Below, piece after piece: positions 149-30,048 of a stretch of 48,068 nucleotides of DNA. The notes below the pieces were generated by a model, which saw only the letters and a list, made by a program, of their open reading frames with translations, did not search any database and was not told the DNA's origin. The DNA lies in assembly GCA_005792285.1 (NCBI GenBank), contig SXSI01000031.1, positions 1 through 48,068 on the forward strand, written 5' to 3'. The DNA is from Bacteroidota bacterium (GTDB lineage: Bacteria > Bacteroidota > Ignavibacteria > UBA10030 > UBA8401). The translations under genes and the position numbers were made by a program. How positions within the stretch are numbered: the first letter of the stretch is position 1; each line of letters opens with the position of its first letter.

Positions 149-2374
149 TTAAGTCAGTTTAGTAGCTAAACTAGATTCGTATTGATCTTTTAGTGTAGTG
201 ATTTCAACAGCTACTTCCCCATTAATTTTAATATAGTTGTCAATTACAAAGCCTAATTTTTGATATTCTTGATTTACATTTTTACACAACTTCTCAAATT
301 TCTCTTTATTTGAATCTTTAACTGTAACTACCACTCTTGATTGGCTTTCTGAAAATAATTGATGATCCAATCTATTTGATCGGTCTAAATCGACTTTAAA
401 TCCTAAATTTCGGTTATTAAATGACATTTCACATAACGTTACTAACAACCCACCTTCAGAAATATCATGTGCTGATGTAATTAAATTATTTTTATTTAAA
501 TCTGTAATCGCTTTATGAAGTATAACTTCATTTTCTAAGCTAAATTCAGGCGAATCTGTTCCTTCATCTTGCGTTCGAAATTTTAAATATAAACTTCCAT
601 TTATATTATCTGTTAATCCACCGAGCAAATAAATACGATCATTATTTGTTTGAAATTTATTAGGAATTACTTCATCAATCGAATTAATTATTCCAACCAT
701 TCCAATTACTGGTGTCGGATAAATTGCAGTATTTTGAGATTGATTATAGAAACTTACATTTCCACCAGTTACCGGAGTATCAAATGCTCGACAAGCTTCA
801 GCAATTCCTTCTATCGCATGAGAAAATTGAAAATAAACTTCCGGATTGTATGGATTTCCAAAATTTAAACAATTTGTAACACCAATCGGAGTTCCTCCGC
901 AACAAACAATATTTCTGGCAGATTCAGCAACTGAAATCATTCCACCAACTTTAGGATTTAAATAAACGTAACTACTATTACAATCTGTCGTCATTGCTAA
1001 TAATTTGTTTGTTGAAGTTATTTCAACAATTGCTGAATCTGTATTATCTACAAATGCAGTTGAAGTGAGAACCATAGAATCATATTGTTGGGTCACCCAT
1101 TTTTTTGAAGCTATTGTCGGAGATTTTAAAATTTCAATAATCATTTCAAGGTAATTATCAGGTTCCGGAAAATTTTGTAAAATTTTGAGTTTATTATTTT
1201 TAATATATTCGGGAAGTTTTTTTTCACGCACATAAACTGGTGCATCGCCTCCAAGAACTAAGCATTGAGGCGGAATATTTACAACAATTATATTTTTAAA
1301 TTGAACTACTAAGTTTTTTTTTCCTGTGGTATTACCTATTTTTATACAATGTAAATCCCACTTCTCGTAAATTTCGTTAATTCTTTTTTCACAATTTGGT
1401 TTGGCAACAAGTAACATTCTTTCTTGAGATTCAGATAACATAATCTCAAAAGAAGTCATATTTTTCTCACGTTGAGGAACTAAATCCAGATTTATTTCCA
1501 TTCCAACATTTCCTTTGGCAGACATTTCGCTCGTTGAACAAGTAATCCCTGCAGCTCCCATATCTTGTATACTATCAATTAAGTCTTCATTTATAACTTC
1601 AAGCGTGGCTTCAAGTAAGAGCTTTTCAATAAAAGAATCTCCTACTTGAACAGCTGGTCTTTTTAGTTCAGATTTTTCAGTGAGATCTTCCGAAGCAAAT
1701 GATGCTCCTTGAATTCCATCTCTACCGGTTGCCGAACCTACTATCATCACAGATCTACCAATTCCTTTAACTGATGATTTGGCAATTTTATCATGTTTTA
1801 CAATTCCAACTGCCATTGCATTTACAAGTGGATTGTCCTTATAACAATCATGAAAATAAATTTCACCACCAACTGTTGGTACACCAAAACAATTTCCATA
1901 ATCCCCTATTCCCTTTGCAACTCCTTTTAACAACTGTTTGGTTTTATTATTGTCTAAATTACCAAATCGAAGTGAATTTAAAGCAGCAATTGGTCTTGCG
2001 CCCATTGTAAAAATATCTCTCAAAATTCCGCCAACTCCAGTTGCGGCACCTTGATAAGGTTCGATTGCTGATGGATGATTATGAGATTCTATTTTAAATG
2101 CTACCGCTAAGTCGTTACCAATATTAATTAAACCGGCATTTTCCTCACCTGCTTCAACAAGCATATTTTTACCAGATCTTGGAAGTTTCTTAATTTCCAA
2201 AATAGAATTTTTATAACTGCAATGTTCACTCCACATTACACTGAAAACTCCAAGCTCAGTATAAGTTGGAACACGTTTTAATATTTCTAATACTTTTTGA
2301 TATTCGTCAGATGTAAGTCCGAGCTTTTTTGCTAATTCTTCATTTACATCAGGTTCAGAATTTTGATTTAACAT
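149..2374 (-). CDS. purL: Phosphoribosylformylglycinamidine synthase II, small type
   Basis: Cytoplasmic purine synthesis enzyme. It converts formylglycinamide ribonucleotide, ATP and glutamine-derived ammonia to formylglycinamidine ribonucleotide, normally working with PurS and PurQ. The 741 residues match the usual length of the Bacillus-type small PurL. The N-terminal EHCSYKNS box (His51) and the block KIESHNHPS (94-102) followed by QGAATGVGG are family signatures, and GGDAPVY occurs mid-protein. The rest follows the duplicated AIRS-type N and C domain layout. The ATG has no clear Shine-Dalgarno sequence. It is the last gene of a yqeY-cvpA-purL transcript, 13 bases after cvpA. PurS and PurQ are not in the window. 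Confidence 0.96.
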   Translation of the reverse strand: MLNQNSEPDVNEELAKKLGLTSDEYQKVLEILKRVPTYTELGVFSVMWSEHCSYKNSILEIKKLPRSGKNMLVEAGEENAGLINIGNDLAVAFKIESHNHPSAIEPYQGAATGVGGILRDIFTMGARPIAALNSLRFGNLDNNKTKQLLKGVAKGIGDYGNCFGVPTVGGEIYFHDCYKDNPLVNAMAVGIVKHDKIAKSSVKGIGRSVMIVGSATGRDGIQGASFASEDLTEKSELKRPAVQVGDSFIEKLLLEATLEVINEDLIDSIQDMGAAGITCSTSEMSAKGNVGMEINLDLVPQREKNMTSFEIMLSESQERMLLVAKPNCEKRINEIYEKWDLHCIKIGNTTGKKNLVVQFKNIIVVNIPPQCLVLGGDAPVYVREKKLPEYIKNNKLKILQNFPEPDNYLEMIIEILKSPTIASKKWVTQQYDSMVLTSTAFVDNTDSAIVEITSTNKLLAMTTDCNSSYVYLNPKVGGMISVAESARNIVCCGGTPIGVTNCLNFGNPYNPEVYFQFSHAIEGIAEACRAFDTPVTGGNVSFYNQSQNTAIYPTPVIGMVGIINSIDEVIPNKFQTNNDRIYLLGGLTDNINGSLYLKFRTQDEGTDSPEFSLENEVILHKAITDLNKNNLITSAHDISEGGLLVTLCEMSFNNRNLGFKVDLDRSNRLDHQLFSESQSRVVVTVKDSNKEKFEKLCKNVNQEYQKLGFVIDNYIKINGEVAVEITTLKDQYESSLATKLT

Positions 2375-19461: not shown

Positions 19462-19490
19462 AATTTAATACTTCCAATGGAGAATATCAA
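19462..19490 (-). promoter_or_regulatory. Candidate ssrA promoter
   Basis: On the - strand, TTGATA (19485-19490) and TAAATT (19462-19467) are separated by 17 bases. The predicted start site falls around 19455, about five bases before the mature tmRNA 5' end. The promoter overlaps the last codons of the upstream SirB1-like gene. The match to the sigma-70 consensus is good at -35 and moderate at -10. Confidence 0.45.
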
Positions 19491-20304
19491 TATACTGCAA
19501 CATGTTTTGTGCCTCCAAATTATTTTTTTGTTTTTCATAAGATGATATCATATTCCGGATCATTCTTTCAAGCATTTGTTTTACTGTTACAGGCTCAAGA
19601 TAATCTTCATGAAATTTAAATCCCGACCTCTCAACTAATATTTTACAGTCGTTTGACTTAAGTATTTTACCGTATGAAAATGGATCGATGTAAACTATTT
19701 CTCCAAAAACATCCAATGAAATAATAAAGTGTCCCGGTAAGCCAATTCCTTTTAATGGAATGTTTAAGCGTTTTGCTACAAACATATATATAAACGACAA
19801 TGAAAGAGGTATTCCTAATTTAGTTTCGAGTACTTGATCAATTAAATGATTCGAGAGATTATGATAATTTTCAGTATTTGGAATGAACTTTCTTTTTTCA
19901 AACAAATATTTGCTAATTTTTTCGAGCATATCTATCGTTAAAGTATCTGTTGCTAAAATTCCCTTCAAATCTCTTGCATATTCATTTAAAACATTTTTAA
20001 AAACATTTATTTGTAAAAGTGGATTTACAACTTGCGAAAGTAAAAATGCACCTTCTTCAAGATCAAGTTCATCGTTAGTTGATACATAATGTCTGAAATC
20101 TTTCAACATTCCAGTATGAATTATTTTAGATTTTAGTAATTCAATCCTTTTGATATATAATTCAGATTCGTTTACATATTTGGGAATATCTTTTAATACT
20201 TCAAGTCCGAATTCTAATAATTTTAATTCTACTGTGGCATATATTTCTAAATCCGGATCATCTAAAAGCTGTAATAACGATTTTATGGATGTTTGTTTAT
20301 TCAT
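19465..20304 (-). CDS. SirB1-like transglutaminase-core protein
   Basis: A soluble protein of about 279 residues resembling the SirB1/Transglut_core2 family. After an N-terminal helical repeat region comes a block like LSNHLIDQVLETKLGIPLSLSFIY, then RLNIPLKGIGLPGHFIIS and YIDPFSYGKIL, which are the conserved family segments. Members are often found next to core cell-maintenance genes; their biochemical role is not settled. The ATG at 20302-20304 is preferred over a TTG three codons upstream and overlaps the end of the LOG-like gene by eight bases, so the two are likely coupled. Confidence 0.75.
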   Translation of the reverse strand: MNKQTSIKSLLQLLDDPDLEIYATVELKLLEFGLEVLKDIPKYVNESELYIKRIELLKSKIIHTGMLKDFRHYVSTNDELDLEEGAFLLSQVVNPLLQINVFKNVLNEYARDLKGILATDTLTIDMLEKISKYLFEKRKFIPNTENYHNLSNHLIDQVLETKLGIPLSLSFIYMFVAKRLNIPLKGIGLPGHFIISLDVFGEIVYIDPFSYGKILKSNDCKILVERSGFKFHEDYLEPVTVKQMLERMIRNMISSYEKQKNNLEAQNMLQYIDILHWKY

Positions 20305-21142
20305 TTGATGCAAAATATTCAGGATAGTTTTTAATTAGATCTGTCTTAAGTTTAACAAATGCCTCTTTTGGTGAATTTACAAAACTGAATAAAGATAAAT
20401 CTTTCTTACTTATTAATTCAAGCCGAGCTAATTCTTTAAAATTTATAATTTTTTCCCAATATTCTTTTCCGTACAAAAGAACTGTAATCTTCTTTTTTAT
20501 TTTTGATGTTTGAGATAACGTTAATAATTCCATCATTTCATCAATTGTACCAAAGCCTCCAGGAAAAGCAATTAAAGCTTTTCCTAGATACATAAACCAA
20601 TATTTTCTCATGAAAAAATAGTGGAATTCAAAATTCAGATCGGGAGAGATAAATTTATTTGAATTTTGCTCAAATTCTAAACTAATGTTTAAACCAATCG
20701 ATTTACCATTTGCAAGTTTTGCACCTTTATTAGCAGCTTCCATTATTCCAGGTCCACCACCTGAACAGACATATATTCTTTTTTCCAGAGGGAGCGTTTG
20801 AGTCCATTCTGTCAACAATCTTGAAAGTTCTGTTGCATCCTCGTAGTATTTTGATAGCTCTAATAAACTTTTGTTTTGTTCTTGTAAGTTATTGTATTTT
20901 AATTTAGTTATAAGCTTTTTAGTGAAGTTATTTTTAGTATCATTAATAATCTTAAGTACTTCGTTTTTTGACTTAATTCTAGCTGAACCAAAAAAGACTA
21001 CTGTACTATGTATTCCAAATTGAATAAATCGACTTGAAGGCTCAAAAAATTCTGACAATATTCTAATTGGACGAGCGTGTCTTGAATTTAACCACGATGC
21101 ATTTTTATAAGCTTTTACAGGTTTAGTCAGCACCTTTTTCAT
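20297..21142 (-). CDS. LOG family protein (Rossmann-fold nucleotide phosphoribohydrolase-like)
   Basis: A cytosolic 281-residue protein with the two signatures of the LOG/TIGR00730-like family: GGGPGIMEAANKGA (128-141) and the PGGFGTIDE motif (194-202). Family enzymes cleave nucleoside 5'-monophosphates (for example cytokinin riboside monophosphates) to a base and ribose 5-phosphate; the natural bacterial substrate is usually unknown. The protein is about 90 residues longer than the short LOG enzymes because of an extended N-terminus with a helical insert (about 60-120). It overlaps ygfZ (ATGA) and the SirB1-like gene. Confidence 0.88.
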   Translation of the reverse strand: MKKVLTKPVKAYKNASWLNSRHARPIRILSEFFEPSSRFIQFGIHSTVVFFGSARIKSKNEVLKIINDTKNNFTKKLITKLKYNNLQEQNKSLLELSKYYEDATELSRLLTEWTQTLPLEKRIYVCSGGGPGIMEAANKGAKLANGKSIGLNISLEFEQNSNKFISPDLNFEFHYFFMRKYWFMYLGKALIAFPGGFGTIDEMMELLTLSQTSKIKKKITVLLYGKEYWEKIINFKELARLELISKKDLSLFSFVNSPKEAFVKLKTDLIKNYPEYFASNE

Positions 21143-21987
21143 CTTGCAATATGTCTAAAGGTCTTCTCTTTAACTAATTCATATTCAGTAGTTTCTAGCT
21201 TAAACTTCAAACATTCTTCCATTTTTGATGTTACCACGGCTAAATAATATATAGTTGAATCTTTTCTAAATTCTGAAATAACTTTCCCGGCAAACTCACC
21301 ATTTTCAATTTGTAACTGACGTCCCACTGTATTAAACTCTTCCTTATTACTTGATAATAGAACTAATGTCTTTGAAACTTTTTGATAACTATCCAATCTT
21401 GCTATTATTTCTTGTCCGAGATAACAACCTTTTGTAAAAGAAATATATTCCCACAAATTAAGTTCAAGCGGATTGTACTGAAGGTAAATATTCTCATTAA
21501 CAGCGATTAACCCACTTGTAATATTTAAATAAGTAAATTCTTCAGTTTTAATTTCACTTAAGATTGAATTAATATTACTGACTGAATTTATAAATAATAC
21601 TTTCCATCTTCCAGATTTAACATCCATCCCATAAGGTGAACTGAATTCAGATATAATATTTTCATCACAATTAATAAACTCTACAAAATCAAAGGAATCA
21701 TTATTCTTTGAGATCTCAACATCATCCGTTATAATATATTTTTGTAATAGTTTTATTGTTTCATCGAACTTAGTTGAACAAGAAATTAAATATATTTTTG
21801 AATTGACGTAAAACAAATCACAAATATCTACTAACTTTCCTTTATCGTTTAAGAAGCAAGTAGTTAAGAATTTAACTTCTCTTAATCTTGAACAATTATT
21901 TGTCGATATCCGTTGTAAATAATCAATTGAATCTTTACCTGTTATTATTACAGATTTAATATTTAGATGATTATAATAATATTGCAT
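21139..21987 (-). CDS. ygfZ: YgfZ/GcvT-like folate-binding Fe-S maintenance protein
   Basis: A 282-residue protein of the COG0354 family. The diagnostic motif KGCYLGQEI (186-194) with its conserved cysteine is intact. The N-terminal half resembles the GcvT fold (VIITGKDSIDYLQRISTN). YgfZ supports the activity and repair of some iron-sulfur enzymes in a tetrahydrofolate-dependent way; this is family knowledge. It is the first gene of an overlapping trio with the LOG-like and SirB1-like genes and follows the terminator of the motor-like operon. Confidence 0.88.
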   Translation of the reverse strand: MQYYYNHLNIKSVIITGKDSIDYLQRISTNNCSRLREVKFLTTCFLNDKGKLVDICDLFYVNSKIYLISCSTKFDETIKLLQKYIITDDVEISKNNDSFDFVEFINCDENIISEFSSPYGMDVKSGRWKVLFINSVSNINSILSEIKTEEFTYLNITSGLIAVNENIYLQYNPLELNLWEYISFTKGCYLGQEIIARLDSYQKVSKTLVLLSSNKEEFNTVGRQLQIENGEFAGKVISEFRKDSTIYYLAVVTSKMEECLKFKLETTEYELVKEKTFRHIAR

Positions 21988-21996
21988 ATAAATATT

Positions 21997-22018
21997 AAAA
22001 GCACCAAATGGTGCTTTT
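21997..22018 (-). terminator. Intrinsic terminator after the motor-like operon
   Basis: A nine-base-pair inverted repeat AAAAGCACC/GGTGCTTTT with a four-base loop lies between the stop at 22054 and the ygfZ start at 21987. On the - strand it ends in TTTTAATATTT, a short interrupted T run. It marks the 3' end of the five-gene operon upstream. A stem ending in A/T runs on both sides could work in either direction. Confidence 0.75.
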
Positions 22019-22053
22019 AATTATAAATTTATTAACTATAAAAAGTTAAATAA

Positions 22054-24093
22054 TTATTTCTTTTCAGTTTCACCATCAGTTGCGGTTTGTTCATCCACAG
22101 CAGATTCTGCTACCGTTTGTACTTCTTGTTGAACAGCTGCTAATGATCCAATTCCGCTCTTTACATAAGTTCGAATCATTCTTGTAATTCTTCTTCGAGC
22201 TTTTAGTTCATCCTCTGGTGCGACAGATTTCAAAGTTGCAATTCTATCTTCGAGTAATGTTCGTGCTTTGGTCGGTAATAATGACAACATTCTTTCAGCT
22301 AATTCTGGTGGAGCATTTTTAAGTGCAATTGACAATTCTTCTCCGGAAACATCACGAGCCAATTGTCGTAATAATCGATCATCTAATTTACCAATAGCTT
22401 GAAAAGCAATACGTTGACTCGATATTTCTCTGTAAAGATCTAAATTAATTGTTTTAATAAAATCTGTAATTGTTTCTTCGGATTGTTCGTCAAGATTATC
22501 AAATATATCTAGTAACATATCACTTCCTTGAACTTGAACATTATTAATAGTTGGTATTTCTGATGCTTTTGTAGCGAGTTGACCAGCTACAGATTTATAT
22601 GTCTCTGCATCCATTCTTGTTAATTTTCCAAGTTCGAGCGCCACTTCACCTTGTTGCATTGAAGGTAAATTTTTCAACATTTGACTTGCAACTGGAGTTG
22701 ATAATTGAGAAAGTATTATTGCAATAATTCCTGGAGTTTCTTCTTTCATCAACATATAAAGTTGTGACTCAGTTAATTTTTCTAAAAATGCAAATGGATT
22801 CTGTGTTTTATTTCTAGATTCCGCAAATCGTTTTACTAATATTTGAGTCTCAAAATATTGCAATGCCTGTTTTTTATCGTCTGCAGTTTTATTGAGTGGC
22901 TCTAAAGTTATTTCCTGAATTTTTTTAACTTCATCAATAGTGAAATAGTCTTTCATAACTTTTAACATACTTCCACCAAGCTGTTCAGTTACAATCGCAA
23001 GTTTATCTTTTTGTGTTGAATCAAGCATCATCTCTTTTATTACTGTTGAGGCAATATTAGATTCACCGGCACATGCAGATACAAGTTTTGAACGCATTTT
23101 CTCTAATTCAAATCCTACAGACATTTCTTGAACAGATTCTTCAAAGCTTTGACCTTTCTTTACTTGAACGCCATCAGTTAATTCTTGAACTTCTGTTCCT
23201 TGTTGCGGCAAGTATTCAACTTTTGGTTGAGCATTTTTTAATCTTGTTAAGAACATATTGATTAATAATAATGCAATTACTAAACCAAGAAATATTATTA
23301 AAAACCATTTTATAAGAGGATCAAAAGTTTCTCTTGCTTCTTGTTGCTGTTGCTGAAGTTTAATACGTTCTTCTTCAATTTTTGATTTTGTTTCAGTTAA
23401 TTGTGTAGTAAGTTCTTCGATGTTCTTTTTATATTCATCAAGTTTAGTCTGTTGCTCAACACTTAATTTTTCTTGAGTTTCTTTATTTGTTTTTTCGAGT
23501 TCTTCAATTCTTTTAACACTCTCAACTCTAATTTGTTCTTCGATTATTTTCTTTTCTTGTTCTAACTCAGCTATTTTTTTTAATGCCACACTGCTTTGTT
23601 GATCTTCTTTCGTTGAAATATTTTTTGCTTCAGGAAAAACCATTTCCTGTATTTCTACCCGATCTCCACGGCCATTGTCAAGTTTTGCTGTGTAAAACGC
23701 AATACTTTCTAAAAGTTCTTTATCCTCTTTTGCTCGGTTCTTTTCAATTAATAATTTAATTAAAACATTTTCGATTGTTTGTTTTTTAACTGTCACAATT
23801 CCTGTTGCATCAGTTCTTGATGATTCAAAACCTTGAACTCCAGGAAGGCCAATATCACGTGTATCAGTTTGCTCATCAGATTGTGGAGCAGATTCTTCAG
23901 CAAAAGTGATTTCTGCAGTTACTAAATATTTCAAGTCAGAAAAATATTTTCTTATTTCGTTTGAGATTCTACCTTCTAATTCTCTTTCGAGTTTCTTTTT
24001 ATCTGCTTCTAAATCAGTTGCAAATAAATTTGTAACTATTAAAGCTGAAATAAAAAACAAATTAATTATTTTATAATTGATATTTTTTTTCAT
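22054..24093 (-). CDS. Membrane rotor protein: FliF RBM3-like domain, coiled coil, TM helix and FliG-like module in one chain
   Basis: A 679-residue protein. It has an N-terminal signal or anchor helix (about 8-25) and a periplasmic domain (about 28-155) with IGLPGV (81-86) and GRGDRVEIQEMVFP (141-154). These look like the RBM3 ring-building domain of the flagellar MS-ring protein FliF. A long Gln/Glu/Lys coiled coil (about 162-255) and a TM helix (262-284) follow. The cytoplasmic part (about 360-648) reads as FliG N, M and C domains, with FAFLEKLTESQLYMLMKEE (434-452), LDDRLLRQLARDVSGEELSIALK (570-592) and ARTLLEDRIATL (610-621). RBM1 and RBM2 are missing. The EHPQ motif of FliG-M is replaced (EETPG, 451-455), and the MFxF motif is not recognisable. 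It overlaps the MotB-like stop (TAATG). Domain calls are by eye. Natural FliF-FliG fusions are known, but not, to my knowledge, in this form. Confidence 0.72.
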   Translation of the reverse strand: MKKNINYKIINLFFISALIVTNLFATDLEADKKKLERELEGRISNEIRKYFSDLKYLVTAEITFAEESAPQSDEQTDTRDIGLPGVQGFESSRTDATGIVTVKKQTIENVLIKLLIEKNRAKEDKELLESIAFYTAKLDNGRGDRVEIQEMVFPEAKNISTKEDQQSSVALKKIAELEQEKKIIEEQIRVESVKRIEELEKTNKETQEKLSVEQQTKLDEYKKNIEELTTQLTETKSKIEEERIKLQQQQQEARETFDPLIKWFLIIFLGLVIALLLINMFLTRLKNAQPKVEYLPQQGTEVQELTDGVQVKKGQSFEESVQEMSVGFELEKMRSKLVSACAGESNIASTVIKEMMLDSTQKDKLAIVTEQLGGSMLKVMKDYFTIDEVKKIQEITLEPLNKTADDKKQALQYFETQILVKRFAESRNKTQNPFAFLEKLTESQLYMLMKEETPGIIAIILSQLSTPVASQMLKNLPSMQQGEVALELGKLTRMDAETYKSVAGQLATKASEIPTINNVQVQGSDMLLDIFDNLDEQSEETITDFIKTINLDLYREISSQRIAFQAIGKLDDRLLRQLARDVSGEELSIALKNAPPELAERMLSLLPTKARTLLEDRIATLKSVAPEDELKARRRITRMIRTYVKSGIGSLAAVQQEVQTVAESAVDEQTATDGETEKK

Positions 24094-24758
24094 TAAACTA
24101 CTCGGCTATAATAAATTCTGATTACAACTCTTCTATTTTCGTTTCGTGCAAAATCTGAAAACATTCCCGTAACTGGATCAATTTCTTTACTAACTGGTCT
24201 TGAATCAGCAAATCCCGTAGATGACAATCTAATATGATCAATTAATACTGTATCTTCCAAATAATGTAGAACTTCTGTTGCTCTTGCAGATGACAATTCC
24301 CAATTTGAAAGAAATTTTTCTTTGCTTTTCAAACGAGTATCATCTGTATGACCTTCAACTGCGAGATACGCATTTCTTGCTTTCACAAAATAAGCTAATA
24401 TTTGTCCAATTCGATAAATTGCTTCATAACCTTCAGGTTTCATATTAGCTTCACCAGGTTGGAATAGTAAACTACTTCCGAATCTTAATTCAATTCCCTC
24501 TTCAGTCATAACAACAGATATTTGTCCTTTTAATCCCGGAGAAGTCTCAATTGTTTGTTTTAATTCCTCCGATAATGATGACAAACTAACTTGGTTTTTA
24601 TTTTTAGACGATGCAAAACTATCTAATTTTGATTGGTCAGGGACAGACATTCCTAATAATAAAACGAATGCTGCAAGTAGTGCAGTTAGCAAATCAATAT
24701 AACTAACTTGCCAGTGTTTTTCTTCTTCCCCTTTATGAAGATTAAAATGTTTTCCCAT
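24093..24758 (-). CDS. MotB-like stator subunit with OmpA peptidoglycan-binding domain
   Basis: A 221-residue inner-membrane protein. A short cytoplasmic N-terminus precedes HWQVSYIDLLTALLAAFVLLL (15-35). There Asp22 is at the position of the proton-binding aspartate of MotB (Asp32 in E. coli). A periplasmic linker (about 40-95) leads to an OmpA-like domain with FQPGEANMKPEGYEAI, VEGHTDDTR (134-142), LSSARATEVL and a closing NENRRVVIRI, the residues that contact peptidoglycan. It is shorter than flagellar MotB by some 50-80 residues. It follows the MotA-like gene by two bases. TolR/ExbD is excluded by the OmpA domain and the WxVSYxD pattern. Confidence 0.88.
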   Translation of the reverse strand: MGKHFNLHKGEEEKHWQVSYIDLLTALLAAFVLLLGMSVPDQSKLDSFASSKNKNQVSLSSLSEELKQTIETSPGLKGQISVVMTEEGIELRFGSSLLFQPGEANMKPEGYEAIYRIGQILAYFVKARNAYLAVEGHTDDTRLKSKEKFLSNWELSSARATEVLHYLEDTVLIDHIRLSSTGFADSRPVSKEIDPVTGMFSDFARNENRRVVIRIYYSRVV

Positions 24759-24760
24759 TT

Positions 24761-25597
24761 TTATCCTGTTGGTACTTGTTCCATTTTTGGAACACTTAAC
24801 ATTCTAGTTCCTGGAACATATGAAATTAATTTATCTTGAATAAATATTGGATGTTTTTTTTCTCTAATTAATACTAATCCTTCAACAATCATAGCTTTAA
24901 GCATAACCTCTTCGTCAGTTCTTTTTTTAATACGATCATGCATTGGACCGAATAGAAAATTGTTATACAATAAACCGTATAAAGTTGTGGTAAAAGCAAC
25001 AGCCATTGCATTTAAGATTGGCGTGAATCCTTTTGCAGCATCAATTGGAGTCGAGAACATTTGAATTAATCCGACGGTTGTTCCTAACATACCATAACCT
25101 GGCGCAAAGCCTTCAGCTTCTTTAAAGAAATCAACATCCTGATTATCTCTTGCCATTTCATTTTGAATTCTTGATTCAAGAGTATCCTGAAGATCTTCTT
25201 TTGAATATCCGTTTACCAATAATAATAAACCATCACGCATAATAGGATATTTTATTTGATTTGCATATTCTTCAAGAGACTCTATATCATGCGATTGAGT
25301 GTATTGAGCAATATCTTTTATAGCATCAATATAAATTGTAAAATCAATCTTATTGCCAACAAATACAAAATATAAGGTCTTCAAAGCGCGCACAATTTGA
25401 CCAGTGCTAAAACTAATAAATAATGATGCAACTGGACCAAGAGTGCACCAAATTAAACCGGGAATATGTACATAAGTTTTTAATATAGCAGGAACATAAT
25501 GTTGCAACTCTTCAGTTGACTCATAACTTCCACCGATTATAATAAGAAAGTATAACGATATTAAAAATATTACATATCCAATTAGAGTTGATACCAT
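24761..25597 (-). CDS. MotA-like stator subunit
   Basis: A 278-residue inner-membrane protein with the MotA pattern. Two N-terminal hydrophobic segments (about 2-22 and 45-63) precede a large cytoplasmic loop with IMRDGLLLLVNGYSKEDL (119-136). Two C-terminal helices follow, with AEGFAPGYGMLGTTVGLIQM (161-180) and MAVAFTTTLYGLLYNNFLF (198-216). The charged tail DRIKKRTDEEVMLKAMIVEG is typical of MotA. With the MotB-like protein it should form an ion-driven stator that turns a FliG-type rotor. The length and the tail distinguish it from ExbB and TolQ. It begins one base after the TPR gene stop. Confidence 0.9.
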   Translation of the reverse strand: MVSTLIGYVIFLISLYFLIIIGGSYESTEELQHYVPAILKTYVHIPGLIWCTLGPVASLFISFSTGQIVRALKTLYFVFVGNKIDFTIYIDAIKDIAQYTQSHDIESLEEYANQIKYPIMRDGLLLLVNGYSKEDLQDTLESRIQNEMARDNQDVDFFKEAEGFAPGYGMLGTTVGLIQMFSTPIDAAKGFTPILNAMAVAFTTTLYGLLYNNFLFGPMHDRIKKRTDEEVMLKAMIVEGLVLIREKKHPIFIQDKLISYVPGTRMLSVPKMEQVPTG

Positions 25598-25598
25598 A

Positions 25599-26423
25599 TT
25601 ATTTCATTTTAAATAAGTGAGCGCGGACATCATCCATTCCAGGATCTAATTCAAGTGCTTTTTCCCAACTTTTTTTCGCTTCAATATCTTGTCTTAGCAT
25701 ATAATAGATTGATCCTTTTAAAGCATATGACATTGCTAAATTAGGTGTAATCTGAATTGAATTATTTACTTTATCTAAAGCTTCCATATATCTTTTTCGT
25801 GAAAATAATTTTTGGCCTTCGTGAAAAAGTGCAACGCCTTTATTGTAATCAGCATCATCACGTGAATAAGTACCAAGTTTTTTTCTAACCAAACTAGTAT
25901 CTATTAAATCTTCAATTTCTAATGCTAAATCATCATCTCGGGATTTTGAAGGTGCAGCATATTGCCCGGCAGAAGTTTGTGGACGATCTGAAATTATATC
26001 TGAAAATTGTTTTTGTCTAATTAAAGAACTTAATCTTGTTTCTGCTTCTCTTAGTTGATCGAACAATTTTTGATATTGATCAGGAGGTGTGTTAGATCCG
26101 GCATTGTCAAAATCTTTTTTTGCTTTCTCGTATCTTCCTGCAGCTTCTTTAATACTACTTTCTCCTTGTTGGGCATCTAATTTTGATTCTTTTAAATTAG
26201 CTCCGCTGTAATCAATTATAAAATCGATATCCTTATTATAAAGATCTAATAATAAATCCATATTAAAAGCAGGAGTTGAAACTTTTACTTTTGTCGGAGC
26301 AGATGGTGATGCACTACGCATTTCTGATTCAGTACGAAGTGGCTCTTGAGTGTTCTCAATTCCTTGTGCAGAAATTGATTCTATTAAAATTAAACTAATT
26401 CCAAAAAAGAAAAAGTTTTTCAT
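25599..26423 (-). CDS. Exported TPR protein of the motor-like operon
   Basis: A 274-residue protein with an N-terminal signal peptide (about 1-19, ending ISAQ). A helical segment rich in charged residues (about 75-140) comes next, followed by a Ser/Arg/Asp-rich linker. The C-terminal region (about 192-264) holds two TPR-like helix pairs (GVALFHEGQKLFSRKRYMEALDKV and KGSIYYMLRQDIEAKKSWEKALELDP, each split here by family pattern). It is probably periplasmic or attached to the inner face of the outer membrane. No family name can be given. It overlaps the preceding outer-membrane protein gene (ATGA) and precedes the MotA-like gene by one base, so it belongs to the same complex or process. Confidence 0.8.
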   Translation of the reverse strand: MKNFFFFGISLILIESISAQGIENTQEPLRTESEMRSASPSAPTKVKVSTPAFNMDLLLDLYNKDIDFIIDYSGANLKESKLDAQQGESSIKEAAGRYEKAKKDFDNAGSNTPPDQYQKLFDQLREAETRLSSLIRQKQFSDIISDRPQTSAGQYAAPSKSRDDDLALEIEDLIDTSLVRKKLGTYSRDDADYNKGVALFHEGQKLFSRKRYMEALDKVNNSIQITPNLAMSYALKGSIYYMLRQDIEAKKSWEKALELDPGMDDVRAHLFKMK

Positions 26424-27532
26424 AATACAAAGTTTACTTGTGCGCCAATATTAGTGCCACCCAAATCCCATTTTAAGTTCTTGACATCAGTTGGTAGATA
26501 ATGTAGATATCCAGTAAAACCAAGATTCTTACTCATTCGGAAAGTAACTCCGAGAGTGAAAACTGATCGTAAATTATTTTTAAAGGAAACATCAAATCCT
26601 CCTCCTACATCAAGTAGAATAATTCCCGAACCCAACTGATCGGAAGAATATAAGTCGAAAGAAAATCCCGGTTGTATTAATAAGCCATAAAAATTTGAAG
26701 TGTTTGCAACAATGCGTGTATCGATGTGGAATTTAACAAATTCAATTATTGTGGCAACTTCATTAAATCTGTATCCCAATGAAACTAATCCTGTTGATAC
26801 TTCATCAGATGAATCACCAAGTGCTAAAGTTCCACCTTGAAACGAAACAGTCAAATAATTCTCGATATATCCGGTTTTAGTACGCATTATCTGTTGAGCT
26901 GCAGCAATATCTTCACCATAGTCGTAAGGCAAAACACGATAAATTGCTTTATACTCTTTTGACCATAAAGTTATACCATCTAGATCATTGATGTCGATAT
27001 AAAAAACTAATTGGTTTGGAGTGATCATCACATCACATGTTACAACTCCATCAATTTTTTTAGTCTTTGCATATTTTTTTAAATCATCGTCTGTTAAAAC
27101 ATTTCTGACTTGTACAGAACTATCAGTTGCGCGTACAACTACAGCTTTTAAATCTTGAGCTGAAACAAATGCAAATCTTTTTTCACGAGCAAAAGCTGTC
27201 TTTATTTTTTTTTCAAAGTAAGTTGTTAAAAATTGTATCTCAGCAAACCGAAGTTCTTCTTTAAAAGGCCAACGAATTTTTAATTTATAAATGAGAAGAT
27301 TTCGAATATAAGGGGAAACATCTTTTGACTCGATTGGCAACATGGACAATGCCGAATCAGAGGCAATATCAAATCTTGGGAAGACATTTAATAACTGAGT
27401 TGTACTAATATCAGGAAGAACATTTTTTTCAGTATCAGCTTCACTGTCCTGTGAATATACTTTCGGGGAAACAAAAAGAATAGCAACGAGTACTGTTATT
27501 ACTACTTTTTTATTTAGAATTATGTTATTCAA
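26420..27532 (-). CDS. Exported CsgG/FlgO-like protein with C-terminal beta-barrel, first gene of the motor-like operon
   Basis: A 370-residue protein with a signal peptide (about 1-28, ending KVYSQ). Residues about 60-215 look like the CsgG/FlgO-type nucleotide-binding-like fold found in several outer-membrane secretion and flagellar accessory proteins (RFAFVSAQDLKAV, KKIDGVVTCDVMITPNQLVFYIDINDLDG). Residues about 225-370 alternate as beta strands and end in NFVL, as in a small outer-membrane barrel. The start is a TTG at 27530-27532; an upstream in-frame stop is close and no ATG occurs before residue 60. The domain reading is tentative. It is the most upstream gene of the operon and likely the outer-membrane end of the system. 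Confidence 0.65.
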   Translation of the reverse strand: MNNIILNKKVVITVLVAILFVSPKVYSQDSEADTEKNVLPDISTTQLLNVFPRFDIASDSALSMLPIESKDVSPYIRNLLIYKLKIRWPFKEELRFAEIQFLTTYFEKKIKTAFAREKRFAFVSAQDLKAVVVRATDSSVQVRNVLTDDDLKKYAKTKKIDGVVTCDVMITPNQLVFYIDINDLDGITLWSKEYKAIYRVLPYDYGEDIAAAQQIMRTKTGYIENYLTVSFQGGTLALGDSSDEVSTGLVSLGYRFNEVATIIEFVKFHIDTRIVANTSNFYGLLIQPGFSFDLYSSDQLGSGIILLDVGGGFDVSFKNNLRSVFTLGVTFRMSKNLGFTGYLHYLPTDVKNLKWDLGGTNIGAQVNFVL

Positions 27533-27607
27533 TATTTATTTATTTGTTATATGAAATTATAGTAACCATCTAATGTAAACACTTGTTTAATTCTTATAAC
27601 TCCTCTT

Positions 27608-27635
27608 AATATATAACAAAATTTGTTTAAGTCAA
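27608..27635 (-). promoter_or_regulatory. Sigma-70-like promoter of the motor-like operon
   Basis: On the - strand, TTGACT (27630-27635) and TATATT (27608-27613) are separated by 16 bases. The start site would be near 27601, leaving a leader of about 68 bases before the TTG start at 27532. It is one of the closest consensus matches in the window. Confidence 0.6.
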
Positions 27636-27641
27636 GCAATT

Positions 27642-27676
27642 GTGCAACTTTTAGCAGAGCCACCAAAAGTGCAACT
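27642..27676 (-). repeat. Paired GTTGCAC direct repeat upstream of the motor-like operon promoter
   Basis: Two identical copies of GTTGCAC (27642-27648 and 27670-27676, - strand) are 28 bases apart start to start. The nearer one ends six bases from the -35 hexamer. Between them lies a weak inverted repeat (ACTTTT/AAAAGT). The arrangement suits an activator or repressor site, but the inverted repeat could alternatively be a weak secG terminator. Binding is not demonstrated. Confidence 0.4.
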
Positions 27677-27683
27677 CAATCTT

Positions 27684-28001
27684 TTATTTTGGCAGGTTTT
27701 GTGGTACTTGCGGAGGTGGTAAACTGGTTTGTGTAGATTGTATTATGCTTTCAGAGTCAGCGGTATTCTTTCCAGGTAGAAATAATAAATTAATAACTAA
27801 TGCCAGTACAATTAATAACGTTGCAAGTATTGTAGTGGTTTTGGTTAAAAAATCTGAAGTACGACGAACTCCAAATACTGCACCAATATTTCCCCCTCCC
27901 ATACTTGAAGCTAAACCTCCCCCTTTACTGCTTTGCACAATAATTACCAGAATTAATAAAATTGATAAAACAATTTCTACTATCATTAAAAATGTAAACA
28001 T
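27684..28001 (-). CDS. secG: Preprotein translocase subunit SecG
   Basis: A small inner-membrane subunit of the Sec translocon. The 105 residues have two TM helices (about 3-22 and 55-75) joined by the conserved loop IIVQSSKGGGLASSMGGG, which is the SecG hallmark. A Pro/Gln/Ser-rich C-terminal tail follows. An AGGA Shine-Dalgarno lies a few bases before the ATG. It is monocistronic here and divergent from tdk. About 150 bases of AT-rich DNA with the motor operon promoter and repeats follow it. Confidence 0.95.
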   Translation of the reverse strand: MFTFLMIVEIVLSILLILVIIVQSSKGGGLASSMGGGNIGAVFGVRRTSDFLTKTTTILATLLIVLALVINLLFLPGKNTADSESIIQSTQTSLPPPQVPQNLPK

Positions 28002-28130
28002 AATTATCCTTTTTTTTTAAAATACCAATATTTCGATCAAAATAAAAAGAAATGAAGTAAATTATTAAGAGTTTTTTTATTTAATTTTTAGTAATATGTG
28101 ATTATTCTAAATTAACAAAAACTAAAGAAA

Positions 28131-28700
28131 ATGGAAAATATAGCACATTCAAAACTAAATTCAGGCTGGATTGAAGTAATCTCCGGTTGTATGTTCAGTG
28201 GCAAAACTGAAGAATTAATTCGACGATTACGAAGAGCGCAAATTGCAAAACAAAATGTAATAATCTTCAAACCAATAATTGATAACCGCTACAGTAACAA
28301 TAATATAGTTTCTCATAGTGAGCAATCATTAAGTTCAACTGTTGTTGAAACTGCAGATGAAATATTTAGTTTATCTCAAAATTCTCAAATTGTCGGAATT
28401 GATGAAGGACAATTTTTTAAAGGAGATCTAGTTTCAGTTTGCATTAAACTTGCTGACCTTGGAAAAAGAATTATTGTTACAGGTTTAGATCAAGATTATC
28501 GCGGTGTTCCCTTTGAACCAATCCCACAATTGTTAGCAGTTGCTGAATATATAACCAAAACTTTAGCAATCTGTGTTGTTTGTGGAAATCCAGCTTCACG
28601 AACTCAAAGAACTTCAAATTCAAAAGAGCGAATTGTTGTTGGCGCAAAAGATTTATATGAAGCAAGATGTAGAAGTTGCCACACAGTTGCTCAAAATTAA
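28131..28700 (+). CDS. tdk: Thymidine kinase
   Basis: Phosphorylates thymidine to dTMP in pyrimidine salvage. The 189 residues carry the P-loop [11 protein letters not shown] (18-28), the catalytic glutamate in DEGQFF (91-96) and the zinc-binding cysteines in CVVCG (148-152) and CRSCH (180-184). It is the first gene of a + strand salvage operon with a nucleoside transporter and a purine nucleoside phosphorylase. The 129-base divergent gap with secG should hold its promoter; I see no convincing consensus in it. Confidence 0.97.
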
Positions 28701-28728
28701 TTCAAACACTAGTTAGGGAAAAATATTT

Positions 28729-30048
28729 ATGGACTTAATAACTATAAGTAGAGGACTTTTCGGAATTGTACTTTTAATTTTTATTGCATTTTTATTTTCA
28801 AATTCCAAAAAAAATATAAACTGGAGATTAACAATTACTGCAGTGATACTGCAAATTGTATTCGCATTATTTGTTTTAAAAACTTCAATCGGTCAAAATA
28901 TTTTTGGAACTATTAGCAAAGGATTTGTTACAATTCTACAATTTTCATCGCAAGGTGGACAATTTGTTTTTGGAAATTTAGGAATTAGTCCAGAAGGAAA
29001 TAATTCTTTAGGATTCTTTTTTGCATTTCAAGTTTTACCAACAATAATATTTTTTGCATCATTAATGGCCGTACTTTATCATTTAGGTATAATGCAAAAA
29101 ATTGTTCAGGCAATTGCTTGGTTTATGTCCAAAACTTTGGGTACAAGTGGTGCGGAATCGCTTTCTGTTGCTGCAAATGTTTTTATCGGACAAACTGAAG
29201 CTCCTCTAGTAATTCGACCTTATATCGCAACAATGACAAAATCTGAATTACTTACGATGATGACTGGTGGAATGGCGCACATTGCCGGTGGTGTAATGGC
29301 TGCGTATGTACTTCTTTTGGGAAGTGCATTTGCAAAAGCACAAGGATGGGAACTCGGAACTGCACAAGTTCAATTTGCTGGACAACTTTTGGCAGCAAGT
29401 GTAATGTCTGCTCCGGCAACAATGTTAATAGCAAAAATTTTAATTCCCGAAAATGAAGAACCAATGACACGCGGTTCAGTAAAAATTCAAGTTGAAAAAA
29501 CTCATTCAAATGTTATTGAAGCTGCCGCAAGCGGTGCAAGTGATGGTGTTCGTTTAGCAATTAATATTGCAGGAATGTTAATCGCATTTATTGCAATTAT
29601 GTCACTTTTAAATTTTATACTGGAAGTTATTGGAAACTCATCCGGCTTGAACGAATATTTATTTGCAACATTCGATAAAAATTTATCTCTTGAATTTTTG
29701 TTTGGATTAGTTTTTCAATTTATTGCATTCGGAATTGGAGTTCCTTGGAACGATGCTTTAAATGTTGGCAGCTTAATGGGAATTAAACTTGTGTTAAATG
29801 AATTCGTTGCATACTCGAGACTCTCAGAATTAATCTCACAAAACGTTTTATCAGTCAAAGCAATTACGATTGCAACTTATGCATTGTGTGGATTTGCAAA
29901 TTTCTCTTCAATAGCTATTCAAATTGGTGGAATTAGTCCACTAGCAGAAAATAGAAGAAGCGATATTGCGAAACTTGGATTAAAAGCAGTATTGGGTGGA
30001 ACACTTGCAACTTTAATGACAGCAAGTATTGCAGGAATGATCTCTTAA
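28729..30048 (+). CDS. Concentrative nucleoside transporter (CNT/NupC family)
   Basis: A 439-residue polytopic inner-membrane symporter that imports nucleosides with protons or sodium. The family core block GQTEAPLVIRPYI followed by MTGGMAHIAGGVMAAYVLLLG is intact, as is FGIGVPWNDALNVGSLMG and the C-terminal GFANFSSIAIQIGGI. Substrate range (pyrimidine, purine or both) cannot be read off safely. Its position between thymidine kinase and purine nucleoside phosphorylase supports a nucleoside salvage role. Confidence 0.93.
   Translation: MDLITISRGLFGIVLLIFIAFLFSNSKKNINWRLTITAVILQIVFALFVLKTSIGQNIFGTISKGFVTILQFSSQGGQFVFGNLGISPEGNNSLGFFFAFQVLPTIIFFASLMAVLYHLGIMQKIVQAIAWFMSKTLGTSGAESLSVAANVFIGQTEAPLVIRPYIATMTKSELLTMMTGGMAHIAGGVMAAYVLLLGSAFAKAQGWELGTAQVQFAGQLLAASVMSAPATMLIAKILIPENEEPMTRGSVKIQVEKTHSNVIEAAASGASDGVRLAINIAGMLIAFIAIMSLLNFILEVIGNSSGLNEYLFATFDKNLSLEFLFGLVFQFIAFGIGVPWNDALNVGSLMGIKLVLNEFVAYSRLSELISQNVLSVKAITIATYALCGFANFSSIAIQIGGISPLAENRRSDIAKLGLKAVLGGTLATLMTASIAGMIS

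Follow-up and report, generated by a model that had tools for sequence, protein, structure and literature searches.

The window analysed here is a 48,068-nucleotide stretch of a Bacteroidota genome (class Ignavibacteria; assembly GCA_005792285.1, contig SXSI01000031.1), and its subject is an operon of five genes at positions 22054-27532, all on the minus strand. We propose that this operon probably encodes a self-contained, ion-driven MotAB rotor-stator machine, separate from the flagellum, that delivers torque to the outer membrane; we regard the system as new in kind and assembled from known motor modules. The analysis established the parts and their folds, their conserved linkage, their independence from flagella and the channel residues of the stator. 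In 5ʹ to 3ʹ order, the genes encode protein 5, protein 4 (with TPR repeats), MotA, MotB and a fusion of an RBM3 domain, a transmembrane helix and FliG. A check of open reading frames placed all five where an earlier note, made from the sequence alone, had put a tightly linked set, and in the same order the genes overlap by 4 bases at the first junction, lie 1 and 2 bases apart at the next two and overlap by 1 base at the last.

Stator and rotor

The stator proteins, which the earlier note had called MotA-like and MotB-like (the latter with Asp22 and an OmpA domain), were matched as such by both Pfam (MotA_ExbB, 4.8e-20, in MotA; MotB_plug, 1.4e-9, and OmpA, 2e-13, in MotB) and NCBIfam, whose top models were MotP, PomA-like and MotA types (1e-37 to 1e-31). 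On sequence alignment, the operon MotA was aligned with flagellar MotA over its full length, cytoplasmic region included; flagellar-type stators are marked by a torque-generating interface of four or five helices in MotA (PMC12505986). In the tree, operon MotAs were separated from TolQ/ExbB with support of 100/100 and from flagellar MotA more weakly (88/66), and the other two MotA_ExbB genes of the window genome grouped with TolQ/ExbB. MotB Asp22 was invariant across the family, as were MotA Pro166 and Pro218 (E. coli P173 and P222) and Glu109 (E98) in the alignment, and the stator retains its ion-channel residues. No signature reliable enough for assigning the ion type was found in the MotA sequence.

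The fusion protein bore out the reading of RBM3-like, transmembrane and FliG-like modules in a single chain, with FliG matches from 1e-15 to 1e-27 and a match to the RBM3 fold. Pfam returned FliG_M (4.3e-16) and FliG_C (1.5e-15), NCBIfam returned fliG TIGR00207 at 7e-27, under its equivalog cut-off, and residues 432-647 matched solved FliG chains at 1.5e-25. When 22 fusions were compared profile to profile (hhalign) with the FliF proteins of relatives that have flagella, residues 32-153 were aligned to FliF RBM3 (85.5%, E 5.7e-6). In the structural model, residues 22-154 resembled solved FliF RBM3 domains with Z of about 11-13, and residues 359-651 resembled FliG with Z up to 16.9 and a large overall root-mean-square deviation (rmsd) that comes from hinging between the domains. 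Taken by itself, the C-terminal domain superposed on FliG bound to MotAB (8ucs) with Z 15.0 and rmsd 1.5 over 88 residues. An N-terminal hydrophobic segment and one transmembrane helix were common to nearly all relatives' fusions, and RBM1 and RBM2 were not seen in the fusion. From the RBM3 fold, the transmembrane helix and the FliG match, it follows that an S-ring domain, a membrane crossing and a whole FliG are held in one chain.

Lys592 and Lys609 of the fusion stood at the positions of E. coli FliG K264 and R281 and were invariant in the window's family (alignment). The FliM-binding EHPQ motif was replaced in the fusions, while flagellar FliGs of the window's family keep EHPQ. This pattern of residues fits a dedicated stator-rotor pair that works without a switch complex. 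In the FliG tree, the FliG domains of the fusions stood apart from all 24 of 24 flagellar FliGs (support 100/99); the long branches make the deeper order unsure, and the placement of the window's group among the other fusions was left unsettled. In one relative (genome G132), a 343-amino-acid protein at L099:9856-10887 matched the fusion in its RBM3 part and has no FliG; it adjoins an 825-amino-acid protein and is possibly a further relative.

Distribution and independence from the flagellum

The fusion was present in 12 of the 22 genomes of the window's family, and the order protein 5-protein 4-MotA-MotB-fusion was found in every locus of the family with enough contig. In a second family, which belongs to a different class of the phylum, 11 loci had the order fusion-protein 5-protein 4-MotA-MotB, so that the two families' operons consist of the same five genes with the fusion moved to the opposite end; their protein 5 counterparts were homologous by profile comparison (93.8%, E 1.7e-7). 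Across the phylum, about 23 of 395 sampled genomes held a full RBM3-FliG fusion, spread over three families, and the other matching genomes of that sample held FliG of flagellar size only; a closer sample added a fourth family with the fusion.

The window genome (1.68 Mb) is 95.6% complete and that of a sister species 100% complete. Profile searches with FliG, FlhA, FliM and MotA_ExbB, on which the absence of flagellar genes in the window genome rests, found the fusion as its sole FliG, a weak second locus lying under the cut-off; FlhA and FliM were absent from the window genome, and likewise from the complete sister species and four further carriers of the fusion. The earlier note had named two findings beforehand that would overturn its claim: a complete flagellar gene set with this operon as its sole fliG/mot source, and the lack of a significant FliG/FliF profile match in the 679-residue protein. 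Both tests came out in favour of the claim, by the FliG and RBM3 matches given above and by the absence of FlhA, FliM and any other FliG from the window genome. Rod, hook and filament genes, for which no direct search was made, are probably lacking there too, as deduced from the missing FlhA and FliM.

The set is kept in many relatives. Of the 12 carriers in the window's family, moreover, half are truly flagellated: six hold FlhA, FliM and a separate FliG, and in all three flagellated carriers examined the flagellar MotA and MotB genes are separate from the operon. Since these six have flagella with a FliG of their own, the operon is not left over from a flagellum, nor does it make up for a part that a flagellum lacks; since other carriers have no flagella, neither system depends on the other. 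We give very little credence to the view that the operon is a reduced flagellum or a spare supply of FliG and Mot proteins, which the data largely exclude. The homology to FliG, MotA, MotB and FliF RBM3 and the flagella of several relatives speak for that view, but the flagellated carriers own their flagellar genes, the fusions group away from flagellar FliG and have lost EHPQ, the two exported partners have no flagellar counterpart, and in several genera, genomes without flagella have conserved the genes in intact form.

Exported partners and a second operon

Protein 4 and protein 5 had been described as exported, with TPR repeats in the former and a CsgG/FlgO-like domain and a barrel in the latter. 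The TPR repeats and the predicted barrel were borne out. As to the CsgG/FlgO label, protein 5 had no match in Pfam or NCBIfam, and fold comparison found a related fold, of LpoB/TolB-N type; the predicted domain resembles LpoB/TolB-N more closely than it does FlgO in particular. Lipobox-like N-termini were present on protein 4 in several relatives.

These partners bring in an explanation of the Tol-Pal or Ton type, in which MotAB acting on the fusion would pull or cycle a link between outer membrane and peptidoglycan through the TolB-N-like and TPR proteins, and no large ring would turn continuously. The fold of protein 5 favours it, as do the relation of MotA to TolQ (PF01618), the OmpA domain of MotB and the TPR protein 4, which we take to recall CpoB. 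However, Pfam recognised no TolA- or TonB-like puller among the five proteins (the rest of the genome was not searched for one), the fusion contains both the torque domain of FliG and the ring domain RBM3, and the window genome has separate TolQ/ExbB genes. We consider this explanation unlikely.

That the operon powers type IX secretion, or gliding linked to it, as a substitute for GldL-GldM seems to us improbable. In its favour, the translocon gene SprA was found in 34 of 34 genomes tested, the window genome included (G000:C45:33218-39655), with recognisable GldL and GldM in G132 only; the GldL and GldM profiles had no match in the window genome. Yet SprA also occurred in seven genomes of the family in which the searches found no operon and no GldLM, no type IX secretion genes lay in the operon and none were found beside it, and G132 holds both GldLM and a fusion operon of a second type.

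This second operon, paralogous to the first and found in relatives, encodes small exported proteins, a 277-amino-acid protein, an outer-membrane protein of about 1000 amino acids, a fusion, a TPR lipoprotein, MotA and MotB. The large outer-membrane protein ends in a TPR domain related to the TPR lipoprotein, and the one MotB scanned (L105:8736-10481) is about 580 amino acids long with a C-terminal SPOR domain (6.2e-9), compared with the short MotB of the window. DUF4402 was matched in 6 of 12 small exported proteins (best 1e-10). Below the cut-offs, one of 11 members of the large protein matched Usher (3e-4) and one of 13 members of the 277-amino-acid protein matched PapD_N (7e-4); profile comparison with E. 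coli proteins gave P 0.0023 for the chaperone and 0.041 for the usher, and neither protein had a usher or chaperone match in the PDB. The two resemble a chaperone and an usher only moderately; if that reading is right, the motor of the second operon would serve a pilus, and the operon hints at motor-driven pili. DUF4402 was absent from the window genome, and hence the pilus reading cannot simply be carried over to the window's operon; pilus subunits as its load were considered and not supported. Another genome, G021, has five clustered DUF4402 genes (G021:C235:2455-11006) and holds both operon types.

The features of the window's operon, with the second operon for reference, are collected in the table. 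The earlier note had framed the set with one promoter and one terminator. A terminator-like hairpin is indeed present just past the last gene, and no promoter stood out, promoter-like sites being fewer than in shuffled sequence. Around the operon (window 19465-30048) lie a secG-like gene on one side and ygfZ/GcvT-, LOG-family- and transglutaminase-like genes on the other, and these flanks are at least partly retained in three genera of the window's family.

Table. Features of the five-gene operon (window positions) and of the second operon type in relatives
Feature	Position	Strand	Basis
Protein 5, 370 amino acids, start codon TTG: signal peptide, periplasmic domain of LpoB/TolB-N-like type and, at the C-terminus, an outer-membrane barrel of 8 strands	26420..27532	-	Fold comparison, no Pfam match
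LpoB/TolB-N-like domain of protein 5, residues 56-198	26939..27367	-	Z 11.2, rmsd 3.0, 123 aligned to LpoB 4q6z
Predicted OmpA-type 8-strand barrel of protein 5, residues 218-370	26423..26881	-	Z 15-16 to OprF/OmpA barrels
Protein 4, 274 amino acids: exported, TPR repeats at C-terminus	25599..26423	-	TPR_2 8.6e-11 (Pfam); conserved family
MotA-type stator subunit, 278 amino acids	24761..25597	-	Pfam, NCBIfam; tree apart from TolQ/ExbB
MotB-type stator subunit, 221 amino acids: one transmembrane helix, plug, OmpA domain	24093..24758	-	Pfam, NCBIfam
MotB Asp22 codon, putative ion-binding residue	24693..24695	-	Invariant in family
RBM3-transmembrane-FliG fusion, putative rotor protein, 679 amino acids	22054..24093	-	Pfam, NCBIfam, solved-chain matches, hhalign, model, fold comparison
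FliF RBM3-like domain of fusion, residues 22-154	23632..24030	-	hhalign E 5.7e-6; Z up to 12.9 to FliF 7cg7, 6scn, 6sd1
Predicted periplasmic helical stalk of fusion, residues 162-255	23329..23610	-	Alignment, model; longer in window's genus than in relatives
Transmembrane helix of fusion, residues 259-284	23242..23319	-	Model, transmembrane prediction
Fusion region matching FliG N-terminal domain, residues 359-430	22804..23019	-	Whole-FliG structural alignments, 359..651
FliG middle and C-terminal (torque) domains of fusion, residues 432-651	22141..22800	-	Pfam, solved FliG chains, fold
Terminator-like hairpin and T-rich tail, just past last gene	21994..22021	-	3 such found vs 2.3 expected by chance; position fits
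Second operon with MotAB/RBM3-FliG, DUF4402, chaperone-like and usher-like proteins	L105-L113, L098, L100, L045; e.g. L105:349-10481

The proposed machine beside known systems

In the machine that we propose, MotA and MotB would form the stator unit, anchored to peptidoglycan by the OmpA domain of MotB, and ions flowing at MotB Asp22 would make MotA rotate against the fusion's C-terminal FliG domain. RBM3 would hold many fusion subunits together as one ring across the inner membrane, with S-ring and FliG ring in a single chain, and torque would therefore pass through the transmembrane helix into the periplasm, where the TPR protein and the barrel protein with its LpoB/TolB-N-like domain would take up the motion at the outer membrane. 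The number of subunits, the assembly of the ring and its rotation are inferred here from what is known of the family, and the ring is presumed to be coupled to the TPR and barrel proteins. The part list of the earlier note, its envelope-spanning logic and its missing export gate hold; rotation, and gliding, adhesin movement or transport as its load, may be entertained.

Several observations count against the proposal. The structural model of the fusion has a mean predicted local distance difference test score (pLDDT) of 71 and a predicted template modelling score (pTM) of 0.31. E. coli MotA Arg90, a contact of FliG, is Gln, Asn or Ser in the operon MotAs, and FliG Asp289 is Arg or His in the fusions; with both residues changed, the stator-rotor interface differs from the flagellar one, and the two sides, judged from these substitutions, may have co-adapted. 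The link of the rotor to proteins 4 and 5 is suggested by conservation of the operon only, and most of the genomes are metagenome-assembled, with absences based on profile searches.

A stand-alone rotor-stator motor, conserved in two classes and found beside true flagella, would mark the motor as a module separable from type III export, with a bearing on how the flagellum arose in evolution, and would offer a five-protein system for rebuilding and testing torque transfer across the whole envelope. More tentatively, as one possibility among others, a new class of MotAB-powered rotary surface machines may be at hand, in which a FliG-RBM3 rotor of a lineage apart from the flagellum would turn different outer-membrane loads: a barrel complex here and, with the paralogous operon of relatives, a usher-like rotating pilus without type III export. 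No description of such a system was found in the open-access literature, the field of that search, which left subscription papers and preprints aside. We know of FliG rotors driven by MotAB only from flagella.

Among known systems, the flagellar motor shares the MotA, MotB and FliG domains, the FliF RBM3 fold and the channel residues, and the RBM3-transmembrane-FliG topology matches that of FliF bound to FliG; here, in contrast, RBM3 and FliG form one chain, RBM1 and RBM2 are not seen, EHPQ is lost, FliM and the export gate are missing, and two exported proteins, of which one is a barrel of the outer membrane, accompany the motor. GldL-GldM is likewise an ion-driven motor of Bacteroidota-type envelopes that reaches towards the outer membrane, whereas GldL and GldM were not recognisable in 33 of the 34 genomes; we know of no FliG or RBM3 in GldLM. 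Tol-Pal and ExbBD-TonB belong to the related MotA_ExbB channel family and have OmpA, TolB-N-like and TPR modules, but they lack a FliG/RBM3 rotor, and the operon MotA stands apart from their channel proteins in the tree. We know of no FliG rotor in Zorya (ZorAB) or AglRQS. These two share with the operon a MotAB-like stator outside the flagellum, in non-flagellar roles (PMC12505986), but the operon has no Zorya effector genes. In the same 2025 survey of MotAB stators, FliG appears as a flagellar partner only (PMC12505986). Engineered FliF-FliG fusions of Salmonella and Vibrio (PMC6079021, PMC11481574) build rings, and a fusion mutant swims (PMC6079021); FliF and FliG are covalently linked there as here, but those fusions serve a flagellum, whereas the operon described here holds a natural, shortened fusion with a stator of its own.

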